Below are positions 25,684 through 58,916 of a DNA stretch of 64,000 nt, one piece after another. The notes under the pieces were generated by a model. That model was given only the letters and a program-made list of their open reading frames with translations. It did not search any database and had not been told where the DNA came from. The stretch is from positions 186,001-250,000 of the forward strand of contig CANMWQ010000004.1 of NCBI GenBank assembly GCA_947501685.1, read 5' to 3'. Every line of letters starts with the position of its first letter. The first letter of the stretch is position 1. The position numbers were made by a program, and so were the translations under genes. The DNA is from an uncultured Litoreibacter sp. (GTDB taxonomy: Bacteria; Pseudomonadota; Alphaproteobacteria; Rhodobacterales; Rhodobacteraceae).

Positions 25684-26636
25684 TCCGCCGGATCTTGATT
25701 ATGGTCCTGTCCTGCGCAGCACTTGGTGCGAATGCGGTCTTGGCCGCATCCCCTGAACGCCACCGCATCAATACAACGCCCGAAGCTCTGGTGCTCGACA
25801 CACCGGAGCGCGGGCCAGCCCCCGCCGAAATGACCAAAGTGTCGCGCACGGGTGGGACGGTCACGCTGAGGCGCACATTTCTTGACGACTTTTCCAGTTT
25901 CACCCCGAATGCCCCGCCTTGGCGGCACCATTTCGACCACGGGCCCTACGACAAAATCTGGGCCCGCACCCTGACCAGCAATCTTGAGCAGCAGATCAAT
26001 GTTGATCCGGGCTTTGCAGGAACAGGCACCCGCCCGCTGCGGCTCAACCCATTCTCGGTGGAGGATGGCATCCTTCAGATCACCGGCAGCGCCGCGCCGA
26101 AAGCGACACAACCCCAGCTGGACGGCTATGAATACGTGTCGGGAATGCTATCGAGCGCTGGGTCCTTTGAGCAGAAATACGGCTTTTTCGAAGCTCGGCT
26201 GCGGGTTCCCTCAGGCAAAGGCTTGTGGCCTGCCTTCTGGCTGAAACGCGATGCGCGCTATGCGCCGGAGGGCACGTCCTCTTGGCCGCCCGAGATCGAC
26301 GTGATGGAACATATTGGCGCGCCTGCCAGCTATCATGTGACGACCCATTGGGGGCTTTCCCCGGACAATGAACGCAGCGGGCTGAAAGTGCCCGTAGAGG
26401 CGCCCACGCAGCGGTTTCACACCTATGGCGTGCTTTGGGACGAAGAGCGCACGGTCTTTTATCTCGACCGTCAACCGGTCGCGCAGATCGAGACCAAACC
26501 GAATCACCATGTGGCAATGTTCATGCTGATCAACCTGGCACTTGGCGGACATTGGCCGGGCCCTGTGGACCCGGCAACGCTGCCCGCGACATATGGAATC
26601 GACTGGGTCGCCGTGTGGCAGTTTTCTGATCAATAA
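25680..26636 (+). CDS. Glycoside hydrolase family 16, ExoK-like secreted beta-glycanase
   Basis: 318 aa with a signal peptide (cleavage after about residue 24, AVLAA). The GH16 catalytic motif E-I-D-V-M-E lies at residues 205-210, nucleophile E205 and acid/base E210. Supporting family features are GFFEARLRVPSGKGLWPAFWL upstream (quoted in part: YGFFEARLRVPSG) and a C-terminal YGIDWVAVW. Such enzymes cut beta-1,3/1,4-glucans or galactans. In an exopolysaccharide operon the likely role is trimming or releasing the polymer in the periplasm or outside, as ExoK does for succinoglycan. A terminator follows. Confidence 0.87.
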   Translation: MIRRILIMVLSCAALGANAVLAASPERHRINTTPEALVLDTPERGPAPAEMTKVSRTGGTVTLRRTFLDDFSSFTPNAPPWRHHFDHGPYDKIWARTLTSNLEQQINVDPGFAGTGTRPLRLNPFSVEDGILQITGSAAPKATQPQLDGYEYVSGMLSSAGSFEQKYGFFEARLRVPSGKGLWPAFWLKRDARYAPEGTSSWPPEIDVMEHIGAPASYHVTTHWGLSPDNERSGLKVPVEAPTQRFHTYGVLWDEERTVFYLDRQPVAQIETKPNHHVAMFMLINLALGGHWPGPVDPATLPATYGIDWVAVWQFSDQ

Positions 26637-26648
26637 ACACCCAGCCGG

Positions 26649-26688
26649 GGCATTGTTATCATTTTGGAACCAACACAATGCCGTTTTT
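26649..26688 (+). terminator. Rho-independent terminator after the GH16 gene
   Basis: Perfect 8-bp stem GGCATTGT (26649-26656) with ACAATGCC (26675-26682), an 18-nt loop and an immediate GTTTTT tail, 12 nt after the GH16 stop. It separates the epimerase-GH16 operon from the exoY-like gene, which then needs its own promoter in the AT-rich 26690-26912 stretch. Confidence 0.75.
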
Positions 26689-26912
26689 GAGGACTAGAAA
26701 AGCCTGTAAAAAATGCGGTTTGACGCATTACCGCCCAAGAATCGGCATGTTTTAGCGCAATACATACAATTAACGAAAAACTGTTCGGAAATCCCCGAGC
26801 AATCAGACATGTACGGCCTACCCATCGCTGGGCAATCTGTTTGTTTTTGGATGTTCAGAGCTTCGTGGATTTACAGCAGCCGGGGGGCTGTCGCTATTGA
26901 AAGAGACTGAAA

Positions 26913-27611
26913 ATGCTCAAGACCAATTCACAGGTTTTATCGCGCGTAGATCGCACATCTTACAAAGCATTCACATCTCGCACCGACCTGCCTTTGGGCG
27001 GACGGCTGAAGCGGCTCTTCGATGTCTTGTTTGCAATGGTCTCACTGGCAGCGACCTCCATTCTTTTCGTGATCGTGGCCTTGGTTATCCGACTGACCAG
27101 CAAGGGCCCAGTTTTCTTTACGCACACCCGTGTGGGCCAAGGCGGCAAGGAGTTTCCCTGCCTCAAGTTCCGCACCATGCGCACCGACGCGGATGATGTT
27201 TTGAACAAGCTGATCTCGGAAGACCCTGAGGCCAAAGAAGAGTTCCAGAAATACCAAAAGCTGCGCAATGACCCGAGGGTGCTGCCCTTCGTGGGCGCGT
27301 TTTTGCGCAAGACCAGCCTCGACGAGCTGCCCCAGTTTATCAATGTGTTGCGGGGCGAGATGAGCGTTGTGGGGCCGCGCCCCGTCACCCGCTCGGAGCT
27401 AACCGAGAATTACGGCGTCTACGCGCAAGAGGTGCTCAAAAGCCGCCCCGGCATTACGGGGCTGTGGCAAGTCTCTGGCCGCAGCGAGCTGTCCTATGAA
27501 GAGCGCGTGCAACTGGACCGCCGCTACATCCGCAACTGGTCATTTTGGAGCGATGTGATGCTGGTGATCCGCACATTTGCGGTCCTGCTGTCCCGCAAAG
27601 GCGCGTATTAA
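26913..27611 (+). CDS. exoY: Sugar-phosphate priming transferase, ExoY/WbaP-like
   Basis: 232 aa, bacterial sugar transferase family. One N-terminal hydrophobic hairpin (about residues 40-62), then the cytoplasmic catalytic domain: GPVFFTHTRVGQGGKEF, LKFRTMRTDAD, RKTSLDELPQF with the catalytic D-E, VVGPRPVTRSEL and SRPGITGLWQVSGRS. It transfers a hexose-1-phosphate to undecaprenyl phosphate, starting repeat-unit assembly. It is preceded by an AT-rich 220-bp promoter region and starts with ATG after a weak AAGAGA site. It faces the wzy-like gene, separated by 21 nt. Confidence 0.9.
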   Translation: MLKTNSQVLSRVDRTSYKAFTSRTDLPLGGRLKRLFDVLFAMVSLAATSILFVIVALVIRLTSKGPVFFTHTRVGQGGKEFPCLKFRTMRTDADDVLNKLISEDPEAKEEFQKYQKLRNDPRVLPFVGAFLRKTSLDELPQFINVLRGEMSVVGPRPVTRSELTENYGVYAQEVLKSRPGITGLWQVSGRSELSYEERVQLDRRYIRNWSFWSDVMLVIRTFAVLLSRKGAY

Positions 27612-34632: not shown

Positions 34633-36252
34633 TTGTTATACGCCATTATCCGATATTTCGCAGTAGGACTTGCCGCGGCAATGCTTGTCTTCCTAACTTT
34701 GACGTTTTCGCCGGGAGTCCGCGCTGAGAGTGCCAAATTCACAGGATGCAGAAATGAAATTTCATCGCAATGTTTGACAGATCTAGGCGTAGAAGTCGCA
34801 ATGGATGCTCGTTCTCTACCGCCATACATGCGTGAAGTTGGAATGTTGGCCCAGATGGGTCGAATAGAGGAAGCTTTCGCGCTGGAGCTGCGCATCTTAA
34901 GTGAAAAAGAGCGGCCTCGGGGGGACATAGAAGCAGCTGTCAATCGAAGATTGGCCAGCCATCGGATAACTGCCGCAATCCAAGATGGTATGGACTTAGA
35001 CGCGGCTATAAATAGGACGCCAGATGTGGCCCCTAGTGTCCTATGGATCAGCGCTCTCGGCCTGCTTGGCCGTAACCCATACGGCGTTTCGATTGGGCCA
35101 AGGATCAGACCTGATGAACGAGTGCTTGTCGTCGTTTCAGATATGGCAGAGCGGATAGCCAGAATGGCGGAAGAGGAGTTAGAACGTCCCCAGATACGCC
35201 ACCTTATGTATGCCGCTGAGCTGCAAGCCGCCTTAGGGAACCGCGCCCGCGCGATCCAATTGCTCGAAGCGTTGCCACAAACTGAAAACCCTCGTATAAA
35301 CCCCTCTGAAGACCTCATGCGGCTCGTCGGTTCACAGAATATATTGCGCCTTTACCGCGAGGCTGGCGGGAGTCGTCCCAACATCCTTTTGACCGCAGCT
35401 TCGGCTGAAACAGACATGAGCCGTGCAGCGGAGTACTTGGAAAGGGCATTCTCTGAGTTTTCCTCAGAAGAGCCATGGCCGGACTTCGGTTGGATGGAAC
35501 GTGCCGCTGAACGCGCTGCAAATCTTGGGCTGGAAGAACTCGCTTTGCAATTGGCACGCGAGCTCGCAGATCAAGCGGAAACGGCACCGTCAGCCTTCCC
35601 AGCATTTCCCCATATCAAAGCAGCGCGCGCACTCACGGCTGCTGGAGCTGGTGAGCACGAAATTCAGGAAAGCCTTGCACTGGCGCAGAGCTTTTTTCCT
35701 AGAAACGAAAGGGAGATCGTAGGCATAGGCGTTGTAAGCGGAGCCATCGTTTGGGGCAGCTCTGGGCTAGATGCTGAGGCGCGGCGTGAGATTGCAAATT
35801 TGAGAGCACGACTGGGAGAGATAGACGCCGCCATCCAAATGATGGACGGAATAGACGATCCTGTGTTCGCGTGGAACGATATGCTGACATCCGATATTCC
35901 TCTTGAGAACTTGAGCGGCCTTTTGGACACCGCAAACGGCGTTCTTTCCAGAGAAGAGCATGCCTATATCAGGGCGCAACATGCACAAGAGCTACTTTTC
36001 TTCGGTGGAGCTGAGCATCAACGATCCTGGGCGCGTACGACCGCAACGAACCTCTTGGATGCAGCGCAACTAAACGGGGATCGTTCGGTTCTGATTTATA
36101 GCTCACTGACAAGGGTTGGAGCTAAGTTAGAAGACCAGGATATCCAGCGTTTAGCTTTGGCGAGAATGGCTGAAGCCGCTCTTGACTCCCGAGACTTCAG
36201 TGATCTGATAACTGCTGGATTTCACTGGTTCCGATCGGACTACACACCTTAA
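34633..36252 (+). CDS. Unrecognised exported, mainly helical protein
   Basis: 539 aa, family not recognised. It seems to start at TTG 34633, which gives a plausible signal peptide (basic residue at 7, hydrophobic core, PGVRA-ES cleavage near residue 31). The in-frame ATG at 34681 would lose the basic N-terminus. The mature part begins with a Cys pair (CRNEISSQC), then a long run of amphipathic helices with Ala/Leu/Glu spacing suggestive of TPR-like helical repeats. Base composition is visibly lower in GC and codon use more A/T-ending than its neighbours, suggesting later acquisition. A palindromic element follows its stop by about 60 nt. Confidence 0.7.
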   Translation: MLYAIIRYFAVGLAAAMLVFLTLTFSPGVRAESAKFTGCRNEISSQCLTDLGVEVAMDARSLPPYMREVGMLAQMGRIEEAFALELRILSEKERPRGDIEAAVNRRLASHRITAAIQDGMDLDAAINRTPDVAPSVLWISALGLLGRNPYGVSIGPRIRPDERVLVVVSDMAERIARMAEEELERPQIRHLMYAAELQAALGNRARAIQLLEALPQTENPRINPSEDLMRLVGSQNILRLYREAGGSRPNILLTAASAETDMSRAAEYLERAFSEFSSEEPWPDFGWMERAAERAANLGLEELALQLARELADQAETAPSAFPAFPHIKAARALTAAGAGEHEIQESLALAQSFFPRNEREIVGIGVVSGAIVWGSSGLDAEARREIANLRARLGEIDAAIQMMDGIDDPVFAWNDMLTSDIPLENLSGLLDTANGVLSREEHAYIRAQHAQELLFFGGAEHQRSWARTTATNLLDAAQLNGDRSVLIYSSLTRVGAKLEDQDIQRLALARMAEAALDSRDFSDLITAGFHWFRSDYTP

Positions 36253-36275
36253 AGCAGACATTGGAATTCTTAGCA

Positions 36276-36296
36276 TGAATGTCCGCTTCGTCCCGC
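36276..36296 (-). repeat. Dispersed short repeat, copy 1 (inverted)
   Basis: The minus strand reads GCGGGACGAAGCGGACATTCA. It shares GCGGGACGAAG with 58176-58186 and the wider pattern GCGG(G)ACGAAG-n3-CCGTTCG with 57969-57988. It sits just left of the first palindromic element. Confidence 0.45.
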
Positions 36297-36313
36297 AAAC
36301 TGCCCTCCCCTAG

Positions 36314-36478
36314 CCGGGCGGGCGCAAGACCGTGGGGTGGCGCTGCAACGGTCATTCGACAGTACTTTATGGAGGCCAAGCACATCTTCCGAATATGTGA
36401 AGCACAAAGATGGCAAAGCGCCAGCCCGCTGGGACGGTCTTGCGCTCGCCCGGCGCCTGCGGCTTGCTTCCGGGCGGG
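36314..36478 (+). repeat. Structured palindromic element, copy A (candidate ncRNA or MITE-like repeat)
   Basis: Outer arms 36314-36333 and 36434-36453 pair over 20 bp with one G-U (on + strand RNA). Inner arms 36338-36344 (TGGCGCT) and 36417-36423 (AGCGCCA) pair perfectly. The 72-nt loop holds TCATTCGACAG (36352), CTTTATGG (36365) and CATCTTCC (36383). A 3' hairpin follows, CCCGG (36449) with CCGGG (36470). Copy B at 57993-58153 has the same order of parts with different but still complementary stems. Not recognised as any named family; orientation given from the G-U pair. Confidence 0.7.
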
Positions 36479-36533
36479 TCAGCGCGTTGAACAACTGTTT
36501 ACTAAGAGCCCGACCCGAAAAAGGGCCCCGCCC

Positions 36534-41365: not shown

Positions 41366-42316
41366 TTACGACCGCGTGGCCGCGCTCTGCCGTCGAAATT
41401 CGGCAGGCGTTTGGCCGGTTTCCTTCTTGAAAGCACGGGTGAACGCGGAGTTAGAGGCATAGCCCGCGCTCTCTGCTGCGTCTGTCAGGGAGGTTTTGGG
41501 CTGCTGCAGGGTCCTTTTGGCGATCTCCATCCGCCATGTCGTCACATATTCCATCGGCGACATGCGCATCTGTTTCTGGAACTGTGCGGCAAAGCCTGCC
41601 CGAGACATCCCGGCGGTGTTTGCCAGCGATTCAACCGTCCACCGTGCAGCGGGGGCTTTGTGAAACGCGTCCATCGCCCGGCTTAGATTCTTGTCGGTAA
41701 AGGCCCCCAACGCAAATTCATCGGCGTCATTGCTTTCCACAAAATACCGGATGGCCTGCGCCAAAATCACCTCCGACATCCGCAGCGCGATCAGGTCGCC
41801 GCCCATTTTGCGCCCCCCCGCTTCCTCACCGATCATCTGCAAACTGGCCTCCATCCACCGCCCTGCATGTTCGCCATAATTCGTGATGTGAATAAAGGGT
41901 GGCAGACGTTCCAGAAGAATGTGCCGCGCTGTTTGATCGAAGGTGAAATGGCCGCAGATCAGCTGAGATTCGCTCTGCGGTTCTTCACCGCCAAAGACAA
42001 GGACGCCAGATCCATCATAGCCGGATTCTTTCAAAACCGCATCCAACGGCATGACAGTCAGCTCCGGGTCACCCCCGCTATAAAGCTGATGCGACGCCCC
42101 ATGTGGGATGATCACAAGATCGCCTTGCGCAAGGAAAACAGGGTCAGGCACACCGCTGACGCTCACGTAACAACTGCCGCGATGCGCGAAGTGAAACCGC
42201 GCCACATTTTGGTAGCTCGGGACCTCAACGCCCCATGGTTTTGTGAATGATGTCCGGAAATAAAGCGTTCCGCGCACCGACAGGCTGGTCAGGATATCAC
42301 TGAGAAAGTCAAGCAT
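41366..42316 (-). CDS. AraC family transcriptional regulator with cupin N-domain
   Basis: 316 aa. N-terminal cupin_6-type sensing domain (residues about 10-190) with RFHFAHRGSCYVSV and GDLVIIPHGASHQL. C-terminal double HTH: WTVESLANTAGMSRAGFAAQF, then SLTDAAESAGYASNSAFTRAFKKETGQTPAEFRR (quoted in parts: AAESAGYASNSAFTRAF). Divergent from the DUF4142-cupredoxin pair across a gap containing a perfect palindrome. Its 3' end is fused in frame, after one stop codon, to a hemP tail. Confidence 0.88.
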   Translation of the reverse strand: MLDFLSDILTSLSVRGTLYFRTSFTKPWGVEVPSYQNVARFHFAHRGSCYVSVSGVPDPVFLAQGDLVIIPHGASHQLYSGGDPELTVMPLDAVLKESGYDGSGVLVFGGEEPQSESQLICGHFTFDQTARHILLERLPPFIHITNYGEHAGRWMEASLQMIGEEAGGRKMGGDLIALRMSEVILAQAIRYFVESNDADEFALGAFTDKNLSRAMDAFHKAPAARWTVESLANTAGMSRAGFAAQFQKQMRMSPMEYVTTWRMEIAKRTLQQPKTSLTDAAESAGYASNSAFTRAFKKETGQTPAEFRRQSAATRS

Positions 42317-42332
42317 AGGCCGATCATATATA

Positions 42333-42350
42333 TGTAAACTTTAGTTTACA
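42333..42350. promoter_or_regulatory. 18-bp perfect palindrome between araC and the DUF4142 gene
   Basis: TGTAAACTTTAGTTTACA, 8-2-8 without mismatch, 17 nt upstream of the araC start and about 107 nt upstream of the DUF4142 start. AraC proteins usually bind direct repeats, so this symmetric operator more likely serves another dimeric regulator (TetR or MarR type) controlling one or both directions. Confidence 0.6.
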
Positions 42351-42456
42351 GCCCACTGTACCATCTGCATGACAGTTTGGACAGTAGAGCATTTTTAAAA
42401 GCAGTGTCTTGGCGCGATACTCGGAACTCAACGTCCTTCCCTCTGGAGCTTCCAAG

Positions 42457-42981
42457 ATGAAAAACCTTCTTTCTGCATTCACAATCGCACTGGCAATGAC
42501 CGGCGTTCAGGCCTCGGCCCAGGATGTGGCCGCCATGAACGACCTCGAATTTGCGCATATCGCATACACGGCTGACAACATCGACATCCGCTATGCGCAT
42601 CTTGCACTGGCTTTGTCCGACAACCCCAAAATTCATGAATTCGCGAACACAATGATCCGCGACCATACTGCGGTGAACGAAGCCGCTTTGGGCCTTCTTG
42701 AAAAGCTGGGCGCGACGGCTCAGGACAATGCCGTCAGCCAGTCGCTGAACGCAAACGCAGAAGAGATCATCGACGGGTTCGTCAAGCTGCGCGGCGCGGA
42801 GTTTGATGCCGCCTATGCCGCCAATGAACTGGCCTATCATCAGTCGGTGAATGATCTCGTAGAGAATACGATGATCCCGAATATCGACAATGCCGAAGTC
42901 AAAGCGCTCTTTGTGGAGGGGCTCGAAATCTTCAAGGCGCATGAAACGCACGCTGAAATGATGGTCAAGGCGCTGAAGTGA
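42457..42981 (+). CDS. DUF4142 family exported protein
   Basis: 174 aa from ATG 42457, preceded by CTGGAGC; the frame is open to 42409 without support. Signal peptide MKNLLSAFTIALAMTGVQASA is followed by a helical DUF4142 domain with IAYTADNIDIRYAHLAL, KIHEFANTMIRDHTAVN and the end ETHAEMMVKALK. The domain is ferritin-like in arrangement and periplasmic, but has no established role. Its stop shares an A with the next start (TGATG), so it is coupled to the cupredoxin. Confidence 0.8.
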   Translation: MKNLLSAFTIALAMTGVQASAQDVAAMNDLEFAHIAYTADNIDIRYAHLALALSDNPKIHEFANTMIRDHTAVNEAALGLLEKLGATAQDNAVSQSLNANAEEIIDGFVKLRGAEFDAAYAANELAYHQSVNDLVENTMIPNIDNAEVKALFVEGLEIFKAHETHAEMMVKALK

Positions 42982-43322
42982 TGCAAAGGGTCTATTCACG
43001 CCGCAACGTGGTAGCGAGGGCGGCTGCATCAGCAGTCGTCCTGACCGCCCTGCCCCTCCGGGCACAAGACCCGGTCATCCATGACGTCCAGATCAAAGCC
43101 TTCAAATTCGATCCTAAAGTGGTCCAGGTGCAGATCGGCGACACGATCCGTTGGACCAACCAAGACCTTGCCCCGCATACCGCAACTGCGGATGAGTTTG
43201 GCTGGGACACCGAAGAAATTGCGAAAGGTGAGACCGGCGAGGTTGTTGTCACCAAAGACATGGAAACATCCTACTTCTGCGCCTTTCACACCCACATGAA
43301 AGGGACAATTGAGATTTTGTAA
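42981..43322 (+). CDS. Cupredoxin (amicyanin/pseudoazurin-like blue copper protein)
   Basis: 113 aa. N-terminus has twin arginines (SRRNVVARAAA) and a hydrophobic stretch ending PLRAQ, suggesting Tat export. Type-1 copper ligands are present: H66 in LAPHTAT and the C100-x2-H103-x2-M106 loop in YFCAFHTHM. FKFDP-x-IGDTIRWTNQD is the usual strand pattern. It is a periplasmic electron carrier; the partner is unknown. Coupled to the DUF4142 gene. Confidence 0.85.
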   Translation: MQRVYSRRNVVARAAASAVVLTALPLRAQDPVIHDVQIKAFKFDPKVVQVQIGDTIRWTNQDLAPHTATADEFGWDTEEIAKGETGEVVVTKDMETSYFCAFHTHMKGTIEIL

Positions 43323-57810: not shown

Positions 57811-57968
57811 GCAAAGCACCACGAAAGCACTTGCGTGGGGTCGCCCCTCGCCCAAAAGCCGACCTCACATTGACCGAGCCAGAGCAGCAGCCGCTCTACA
57901 AGCGTACTTAGCGTCATCGTGCTGGTAGTCAGTCAGGTAACGGGTATTCTCGGGACAAGCTTGGCTTT

Positions 57969-58196
57969 GCGGACGAAGGGGCCGTTCGATGAGGGCGTTG
58001 CCAGACCGCGGGATGGCGATCCAAAAGCTCATTCGACAGCGCTTTATGGCAGCAATGTCATCTTCCACATATTCGCAGCGCCAAACTCAACCAAATCGCC
58101 AGCCCTGACGGGCGGTCTGGCAATGCCCGGGGCCTGCGGCCTGTTAACCGGGCTGTGGCGCTAAAGGACGGGCATGCGGGACGAAGTAACCGTTCG
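57969..58196 (+). repeat. Imperfect direct repeats flanking palindromic element B
   Basis: Left copy 57969-57988 and right copy 58176-58196 share GCGG(G)ACGAAG-n3-CCGTTCG in the same orientation, about 207 bp apart, bracketing the palindromic element. A third, inverted copy lies at 36276-36296 beside element A. They could be remnants of target duplication or a further dispersed repeat. The rest of the 57811-58298 gap has no gene. Confidence 0.45.
57993..58153 (+). repeat. Structured palindromic element, copy B (candidate ncRNA or MITE-like repeat)
   Basis: Outer arms 57993-58009 and 58112-58128 pair over 17 bp with one G-U on the + strand. Inner arms 58014-58020 (TGGCGAT) and 58095-58101 (ATCGCCA) pair perfectly. 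The loop holds TCATTCGACAG (58029), CTTTATGG (58042) and CATCTTCC (58059), as in copy A at 36314-36478. The 3' hairpin is CCCGG with CCGGG (58148-58152) around GGCCTGCGGCCTGTTAA. Stem changes relative to copy A are compensatory. Confidence 0.7.
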
Positions 58197-58298
58197 GCGA
58201 GTGTGAAATGCTGCATACTCCACTGCCAAGGATCGCTGAGTGTATATCGAAAGCTTCGGTGTTTTACATAGGGCCAAAATTCATATTAATACGGCGAA

Positions 58299-58595
58299 AT
58301 GATTTTTTTGCTCCCTACCATTTGGCTACCAATATTGAGCCTAGTAGTGCTTATGGCTTTGGCGCGTTGGACGCAGATGCCAAGACACGTTTTCTCGTCA
58401 GTGGGATGGCTCTTTTTGAGTATTGGATTGCTGCTTGCGGTAATCGGTATGAGTGTCCGTGCCGCAATAATCCCGGGAGACTACATTGGGTGGAGCAAAT
58501 GGCAGATTTGGACGGACCAAGCAATCATAGCAGCTGTCATGGGTGGAGCTCCGATTGCAGTCGGACTTTTGTGCGTTTTGCGGATAGGAAAATAG
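58299..58595 (+). CDS. Small hydrophobic membrane protein, unrecognised
   Basis: 98 aa, no family recognised. Three hydrophobic segments (about 2-20, 32-52 and 75-94) separated by short polar loops, with a WSKWQIWTDQ loop rich in Trp before the last helix. Composition is AT-richer than the neighbours, like the surrounding 58200-58780 stretch, which suggests acquired or poorly conserved DNA. RBS is weak. The clear topology argues for a real gene, but it could be chance. Confidence 0.5.
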   Translation: MIFLLPTIWLPILSLVVLMALARWTQMPRHVFSSVGWLFLSIGLLLAVIGMSVRAAIIPGDYIGWSKWQIWTDQAIIAAVMGGAPIAVGLLCVLRIGK

Positions 58596-58916
58596 TCGGT
58601 AGCGAATGTCGAATTGGGCTCAAACCGGACTGCTCGCAAACATCTCGTTCTCAGGCCGAGCACTCCATTCATGCTCAAACTGATGCCAAAGCTCGGTCTG
58701 CAAGCCTATACACGCAGTCCGATCTCAAAACCCGACAATAAACCCTGCACAAACTGCAGACAAGCCGCGACATTTTTTCCACCCCTGCGACGGGTTGGAA
58801 CATTGCCCTGCCCGCTCCGAGGCACTAAACCAACACGTGACGCCCGGATTCCATTTGGATACCTCTTGGACATGGGCTCTTGTCGAGACTGAATTACAAA
58901 GAATTGGGAGACACCC
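58596..58916. promoter_or_regulatory. 321-bp region upstream of ctaD
   Basis: No supported gene; frames here are shadows. The ctaD promoter should lie within it, and TTGGGAGACACCC just before 58917 contains the RBS GGGAGA. I see no clear operator. Confidence 0.4.

Follow-up and report, generated by a model that had tools for sequence, protein, structure and literature searches.

ERIC-like sequences and RIME are intergenic repeats of a small size class that occur in many copies. Integron attC sites are imperfect palindromes that accompany the single, sparsely distributed genes of cassettes. REPINs are inverted REP doublets thought to be moved by a RAYT transposase, and the available portion of PMC3116915 describes both a 'hairpin' and a 'clover' fold for them. 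RU-1, of 127 bp, is presented as a small mobile sequence in the available portion of PMC2759123.

The stretch of uncultured Litoreibacter DNA analysed here (64,000 nt, hereafter the window) contains two copies, A and B, of what is apparently an undescribed covarying dispersed palindrome of the Rhodobacteraceae. Compared with REPINs as the available portion of PMC3116915 describes them, the element likewise has two inverted, individually palindromic ends around a spacer, can fold as a long hairpin or as two end hairpins, carries compensatory changes and is dispersed between genes. The hairpin-forming inverted ends of a REPIN are present, and end hairpins are supported at four of seven arm quartets; by eye, no GTAG or CGTC tag tetranucleotide is apparent at the consensus ends. 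The element differs from REPINs in that its arm sequences vary between subfamilies, that it has an extra 3' hairpin, conserved loop islands and a core of about 165 nt, that it is in some cases kept at the same locus across species, and that the element-bearing genomes examined have no Y1/RAYT gene (8 of 8). It works like a REPIN, yet its genomes lack the REPIN enzyme where tested. Like attC, it is an imperfect palindrome beside single, sparsely distributed genes, with some copies in tandem; unlike the situation in integrons, its orientation to a given cargo is not fixed, its genomes have no integron integrase above cut-off, and attC R-box motifs are not seen by eye. We know of no cargo seam or arm coupling in ERIC-like sequences or RIME. 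The element shares with these and with RU-1 its size class, its many intergenic copies and a likeness to MITEs (available portion of PMC2759123), a comparison by description only, with sequences of other taxa.

On balance we hold, by a narrow preference, that A and B are copies of a non-autonomous, REPIN-like mobile palindromic repeat moved by a putative trans-acting enzyme.

Structure of elements A and B

The initial annotation described A as a palindrome with outer and inner stems and a 3' hairpin. This structure is confirmed: the outer arms (36313-36333 and 36434-36454) are 21 nt long and 95% complementary, the inner arms are 11 nt long and 91% complementary, and a 7-bp hairpin stem lies 3' of the paired arms (Table 1). 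The arms of B are 17 nt (94% complementary) and 11 nt (91%). Compensatory changes from A to B are present as reported, an inner C-G pair becoming A-T and the innermost outer T-A pair becoming C-G, and the sole non-Watson-Crick outer pair of A is indeed G-U. RNA folding gives -85.6 kcal/mol for A (z -4.7) and a z of -3.3 for B, and 0 of 200 shuffles are as good in either case.

Table 1. Features of elements A and B, of their surroundings and of the S10 operon. Coordinates are window positions unless a locus is named.
Feature	Coordinates	Strand	Remarks
Element A, family core	36312..36475	+	Covariance-model ends; 182.2 bits, E 1.6e-38 in own genome; one of the 13 copies used to build model R1
Extended unit A: core, subfamily-I 5' extension (GTCCCGCAAAC...) and 3' extension (GGGTCAGCGCGTTGAA)	36286..36494	+	Ends approximate, from flank alignments among own-genome copies
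Outer stem 5' arm, element A	36320..36333	+	Partner 36434-36447
Outer stem 3' arm, element A	36434..36447	+	Site of optional extra hairpin in other copies
Inner stem 5' arm GGG.TGGCGCT, element A	36334..36344	+	Alternative local partner, outer 5' arm
Inner stem 3' arm AGCGCCA.CCC, element A	36417..36427	+	Alternative local partner, outer 3' arm
Internal loop with conserved islands (CTTTAT...GCCAA...CACATCTTCC), element A	36345..36416	+	
3' hairpin, element A	36448..36475	+	Contains nested small hairpin GCC-TGC-GGC
Short inverted repeat AAGCAGACATT/AATGTCCGCTT	36252..36288	+	Between cargo ORF and element A
Cargo ORF, 539 aa	34633..36252	+	Lowered-GC stretch, 5' of element A
Element B, second subfamily	57988..58153	+	142.8 bits
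Cargo ORF, 98 aa	58299..58595	+	Lowered-GC stretch, 3' of element B; hydrophobic by eye
Segment between lipB and conserved DNA before ctaD	57811..58763	.	Contains element B and the 98-aa ORF
lipB	57127-57810		Gene name by NCBIfam
ctaD	58917-60584		Gene name by NCBIfam
S10 operon, inserted DNA	L090:5361-5525		
S10 operon, inserted DNA	L090:8642-8805		

Between copies that share a genome (45 listed rows), similarity mostly stops 17-58 bp past the 5' end of the core and within 59 bp of its 3' end; the exceptions are one pair alike for 170 bp at the 5' side and another for 96 bp at the 3' side. A second motif near the elements, made of AANGNCNGCT half-sites or of GAANGRCNGCTTTGAGCCC, was set aside as too weak (7 matches against 3 with the reversed pattern), as were half-site pairs (3 against 0 in reversed sequence over 401 kb). 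Half-site patterns related to the short inverted repeat beside A are without clear enrichment near elements.

Family size and distribution

A and B had been taken for a two-copy family, which proves too small: the 3.3-Mb own genome has 28 copies at E ≤ 1.7e-10. Copies in this genome were first found by DNA search, and 13 of them were aligned to give the covariance model R1 used for the count; six weaker R1 rows are opposite-strand shadows of listed copies. At E ≤ 0.01, R1 matches are present in 23 of 41 genomes, own genome included. They occur in 18 of the 20 other genomes of the genus, in all four genomes of other Rhodobacteraceae genera and in 0 of 16 from other families; within the genus their number ranges from 0 to 31 per genome (shadows included). 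In a family-wide sample, 149 of 295 genomes, representing 149 of 294 genera, match at E ≤ 1e-5, with the best nine candidates scored per genome, so that copy numbers are lower bounds. A class-wide sample, with the best seven candidates scored per genome, yields matches in 4 of 385 genomes, own included, and all four are Rhodobacteraceae.

A pattern scan of titled contigs gives 22 stretches, from Litoreibacter, Tateyamaria, Seohaeicola, Pseudooceanicola, Roseobacter and uncultured Rhodobacteraceae, and five plasmid records (Salipiger, Leisingera, Pacificitalea) contain a partial DNA match. Carriage by phages was considered and set aside on 0 matches among phage records in the DNA search. The initial annotation could name no family, and none is found in Rfam: at gathering threshold the whole window gives two tRNAs only, and positions 36250-36530 have no match at E ≤ 10. 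The open-licence literature searched, including the available portions of PMC3116915 and PMC12306157, contains no description of the element.

Stem covariation and strand

Covariation was examined in rows that are related and that were all aligned to the model structure, which biases them towards it; in the first set, of 105 rows (104 distinct, five of them own-genome copies, a few of them weak opposite-strand rows), 92.7% of pairs are standard, compared with 80.3% in shuffles and 32-42% when the arms are slid. Both sides change in 26 of 33 pairs, and in 13 of the 14 pairs of outer-stem helix 1; none of 500 shuffles reaches any of these measures. Of a further 55 rows, 30 come from elsewhere and 25 from the own genome; this set includes all 13 copies that built R1, shares five rows with the first and gives 94.0% standard pairs and both-side changes in 30 of 33. 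The initial annotation was right about covariation, which is very strong in the stems of the family. Conservation per position is 1.26-1.30 bits in the inner stem and 3' hairpin and 0.94-0.98 bits in the outermost arms; the loop averages 0.80 bits, with 14 of its 73 positions above 1.3 bits.

Strong covariation and conserved loop islands would also suit a plus-strand structured RNA that sits in 3' UTRs or between the genes of an operon, has multiplied together with the genes upstream of it and acts in stability, processing or as a two-state switch. This alternative we consider rather unlikely. The initial annotation favoured a plus-strand RNA or an RNA-level palindromic repeat on the grounds that the G-U pair would be an A-C mismatch on the minus strand. 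G-U cells do exceed A-C cells on the plus strand (113 against 71, in the first 97 of the 105 rows), an excess that a pure DNA cruciform does not predict and that weakens the mobile interpretation to that extent. It leans only weakly to the plus strand, with 20 of the 71 A-C cells coming from a single stem-end pair, and as an argument about strand it carries little weight on this larger set.

The small 3' hairpin also weakens the strand argument. Its loop is cTNCg on the plus strand in 76 of 146 rows, a count that rules out a UNCG tetraloop, considered as a candidate, in favour of a triloop; on the minus strand the same loop is cGNAg, a loop of exceptional stability in DNA. The hairpin's folding energies separate neither the two strands nor DNA from RNA. 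No promoter-like site is found at A or B, nor is there, on the plus strand, a GC stem with the trailing T run of an intrinsic terminator. Minus-strand terminator sites number two near A, one of them within the element, against 0.4 expected, and one inside B against 0.3, and A and B may thus have minus-strand terminator activity, weak if any. Optional extra hairpins occur at two fixed 3'-side sites, with compensatory changes by eye among 20 aligned long copies, and speak for the RNA alternative; the missing promoter-like site and Rfam family and the weak strand bias speak against it. The selected form may be RNA or single-stranded DNA. Partial complementarity among the four arms, dispersed near-identical copies and the lack of a promoter-like site make a mobile REPIN-like palindrome fit at least as well as a free-standing RNA.

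Copies from several species, among them L048, L052, L053, L167, L169 and L173, have one optional hairpin, CCTCTCGGCGATTGC..GCAATCGCCTGTCGGTC, within the outer 3' arm; this hairpin may form a separate, nested repeat family.

Four-arm complementarity and alternative folds

The outer and inner arms covary with each other beyond the pairing across each stem (covariation scan, 145 rows), and their order along the element resembles ATCGCC, GGCGAT, ATCGCC, GGCGAT. At columns 11/32/108/135, TATA is found in 58 rows, GCGC in 39 and ATAT in 7 (n=139); all four pairings hold in 108 of the 139, whereas shuffles average 50 and reach 68 at most. The quartet from column 13 reaches 127 (shuffled at most 119), that from column 14 reaches 103 (at most 97) and that from column 16 reaches 81 (at most 68), the last with 20 rows (TTAA) that break the local pairs. 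Four of the seven arm quartets thus exceed every shuffle, and for those from columns 10, 12 and 15 coupling is not above the shuffles. With two end hairpins as the alternative fold, 81.2% of positions pair, against 71.6% shuffled and 28-44% slid. With four arms that can all pair with one another, and that covary in part, the element can form either a single long hairpin or a hairpin at each end. Maintenance of the long hairpin is clear; that of the end hairpins, which have partial support, is at least partial. Two competing folds are also compatible with a plus-strand RNA.

Template switching at quasi-palindromes homogenises complementary arms, and mutually complementary arms could accordingly be kept so in a passive old palindrome that has neither its own function nor its own enzyme and accumulates where gaps are under little constraint; insertions are tolerated in gaps close to convergent gene ends. 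Such a repeat is very unlikely to be the explanation, as it would account neither for the conserved loop islands nor for 97% identical copies at unrelated loci. The mobile, REPIN-like interpretation is strengthened by the covariation, the four-arm coupling and the folds of REPIN type (available portion of PMC3116915). It is weakened by the three uncoupled quartets and by the lower conservation of the outermost arms.

Dispersal and search for a mobilising enzyme

Copies L139 and L140 of one genome (G006) lie at unrelated loci and are 97.4% identical over 235 bp; their similarity ends 34-35 bp past the core on each side and is the sole match between the two 5-kb loci. Such identity implies recent dispersal. 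In seven multi-copy genomes the nearest relative of a row is within the same genome in 23 of 73 cases, a set that includes only five own-genome copies. The near-identity at unrelated loci, the 28 own-genome copies and the uneven number per genome strengthen the view that the element is mobile.

The longest flank repeat averages 5.81 nt compared with 5.66 shuffled over 126 of the 135 listed copies, and repeats of at least 9 nt flank four of these copies against 1.1 expected; no general target-site duplication is seen over the 126. This result, and the lack of a promoter-like site at A and B, also favour the mobile repeat. Against it stands the failure to find a mobilising enzyme. The Y1 (RAYT-type) transposase PF01797 is found at E ≤ 1e-5 in 0 of 8 element-bearing genomes, and in 5 of 14 control genomes. 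None of 10 genomes has an integron integrase (TIGR02249) over cut-off; all 10 give weak matches, and so do 13 of 14 control genomes. The mobile interpretation is also weakened in that no case was seen of the element by itself having cleanly entered a site left as it was. A precise insertion footprint at A was considered and rejected, because in relatives where both flanks find a match these matches lie apart.

Base composition and gene orientation around the elements

A 400-bp flank below 50% GC adjoins 40 of 79 elements, compared with 1 of 79 windows 2 kb away (Wilcoxon p 1e-11), counted on the 79 of 92 elements in L118-L193 with full flanks and against a distal control that is imperfect because intergenic gaps are lower in GC than genes. 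Both flanks are low in GC at only one of the 79. In the own genome the figures are 12 of 24 against 1 of 24 (p 1.4e-4; 24 of the 28 copies), and at other loci, mostly of other genera, 8 of 18 flanks are below 52% GC against 2 of 18 distal windows (p 0.047; the 18 of 29 elements with full flanks). In the genus, about half of the copies thus show the low-GC association, and in other genera it is weaker. Among the 12 window gaps of at least 150 bp, those of A and B are the lowest in GC (0.505 and 0.5225), and none of the 10 element-free gaps is below 0.54. Lowered GC is also seen at window positions 26501-27000 and 42001-43000, where there is no element.

Neighbouring genes are convergent at 33, tandem at 50 and divergent at 8 of 91 elements (rough gene calls; 91 of the 92 elements in L118-L193), and the avoidance of divergent pairs, 8 as against 33 convergent, strengthens the mobile interpretation. 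For the plus-strand RNA, gene orientation gives a divided answer. Where one flank is clearly lower in GC, the host gene has its 3' end towards the element in 40 of 57 cases, which favours the RNA. Against it, the same 57 are divided between host genes 5' of the element (27) and host genes 3' of it (30), and the copies in the S10 operon are antisense.

Cargo genes and variable gaps

The 539-aa cargo ORF beside A has 0 matches in Pfam, PADLOC, NCBIfam and plasmids, and the 98-aa ORF beside B belongs to no known family in Pfam or NCBIfam. Among 20 element-adjacent ORFs, 10 match a Pfam family (DUF4440, cupin, pyrophosphatase, COX1, GIY-YIG, barstar, glyoxalase, TerB, FGE-sulfatase and GNAT) and the remaining 10 match none. 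The GIY-YIG ORF matches the defence protein PD-T4-3 at 7e-48 (PADLOC), and nine further ORFs searched in PADLOC have 0 matches. This PD-T4-3-like gene (L043:1676-2413, minus strand) has an element on one side and a second tuf gene on the other. Tandem elements are found at L092:7195-7916, L119:2538-3122 and L122:2319-2699; one pair flanks a barstar-family ORF, and the others are merely 16-32 bp apart.

The lipB-ctaD gap that holds B is about 950 bp in the own genome, about 20-80 bp in G005, G008 and G012, and larger in other relatives, up to about 9 kb (G006). S10 operons are normally compact. In this genus the S10 operon carries inserts that differ from species to species, located in the rplW-rplB and rpsJ-tuf gaps. 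An element is present in 9 of 10 intact rplW-rplB gaps (not in G015), all from genomes chosen for having element matches. In the nine species compared, with loci selected for carrying an element and turnover figures that therefore cover element-bearing gaps only, only the gene edges and the element are alike at the nucleotide level, the single exception being a 3'-side ORF common to G001 and G010. Many full-length element matches start and stop within 8 nt of the model ends, and copies with internal indels match only in part. The intervening DNA is unrelated by tblastx apart from the shared ORF and a few stretches of 15-25 residues. G001 and G010 share 98.7% identity over 75 bp at the rplB edge, 91.6% over the element and 95.8% over the 3' part that they have in common; their 5' cargoes (688 and 678 bp) are nevertheless unrelated, with the break 26 bp ahead of the element. 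For elements in this gap, the closest relative is the same-gap element of another species in 8 of 9 cases. Retention of some copies at one locus across species could mean a host function and weakens the mobile interpretation.

Like edges and elements around mostly unrelated cargo would suit a site of cassette exchange, at which cargo genes are swapped beside the element in an integron-like manner without an integron integrase. The element would then be a two-state palindrome serving as the recombination site of an undescribed Rhodobacteraceae gene-cassette exchange system. We regard this as distinctly unlikely, although several observations agree with it. The low-GC flanks fit, as do cargo types such as GNAT, cupin, barstar, glyoxalase and PD-T4-3, and the same cargo occurs at otherwise unlike loci: a GNAT cargo is 90.8% identical between the own genome (L057) and G017 (L146, with an element on either side of it), and a 122-aa cargo is 88% identical between L040 and L141, with a 66% relative at L118 that is also beside an element. 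Both are rare, the GNAT cargo being in 2 of 21 genus genomes (E ≤ 1e-15) and the 122-aa cargo in 2 of 198 family genomes (E ≤ 1e-6), besides G005 and G006 outside that sample. Other observations oppose it. The same end of the 122-aa cargo faces the 3' end of the element in L040 and the 5' end in L141; its homologue in G194 (L228) has no element within the 2.5 kb examined, which counts against a strict link between cargo and element; about half of the copies have no low-GC flank; no integron integrase exceeds cut-off; and the rplB-rplW loci were picked for carrying an element. Were the cassette interpretation correct, the elements would be docking sites, gaps in ribosomal protein operons among them, at which species exchange individual genes for defence, toxin immunity and metabolism.

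Proposed mode of dispersal and significance

For the preferred REPIN-like mobile repeat, the following course is proposed. The unit consists of two near-palindromic ends, inverted around a loop of about 73 nt, together with the 3' hairpin; such ends allow one long hairpin or a hairpin at each end. The substrate recognised by a trans-acting enzyme may be single-stranded DNA folded in one of these ways, as proposed for REPINs, and this putative enzyme would copy or move the unit. Copies are placed mainly downstream of genes, in many cases where a core gene meets exchangeable low-GC cargo, and some persist at a locus across species splits. The element may also have a part in cargo turnover, either driving gene exchange or only marking it.

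About half of the genera sampled from a major family of marine bacteria have this covarying element, which lacks an Rfam match. If it is mobile, it implies an unknown enzyme, as the genomes tested have no RAYT. The covariance model lists copies genome by genome, so the questions of strand and enzyme are directly testable. If the element is active in cargo exchange, it would help to explain why the gaps of the S10 operon hold different genes in each species.
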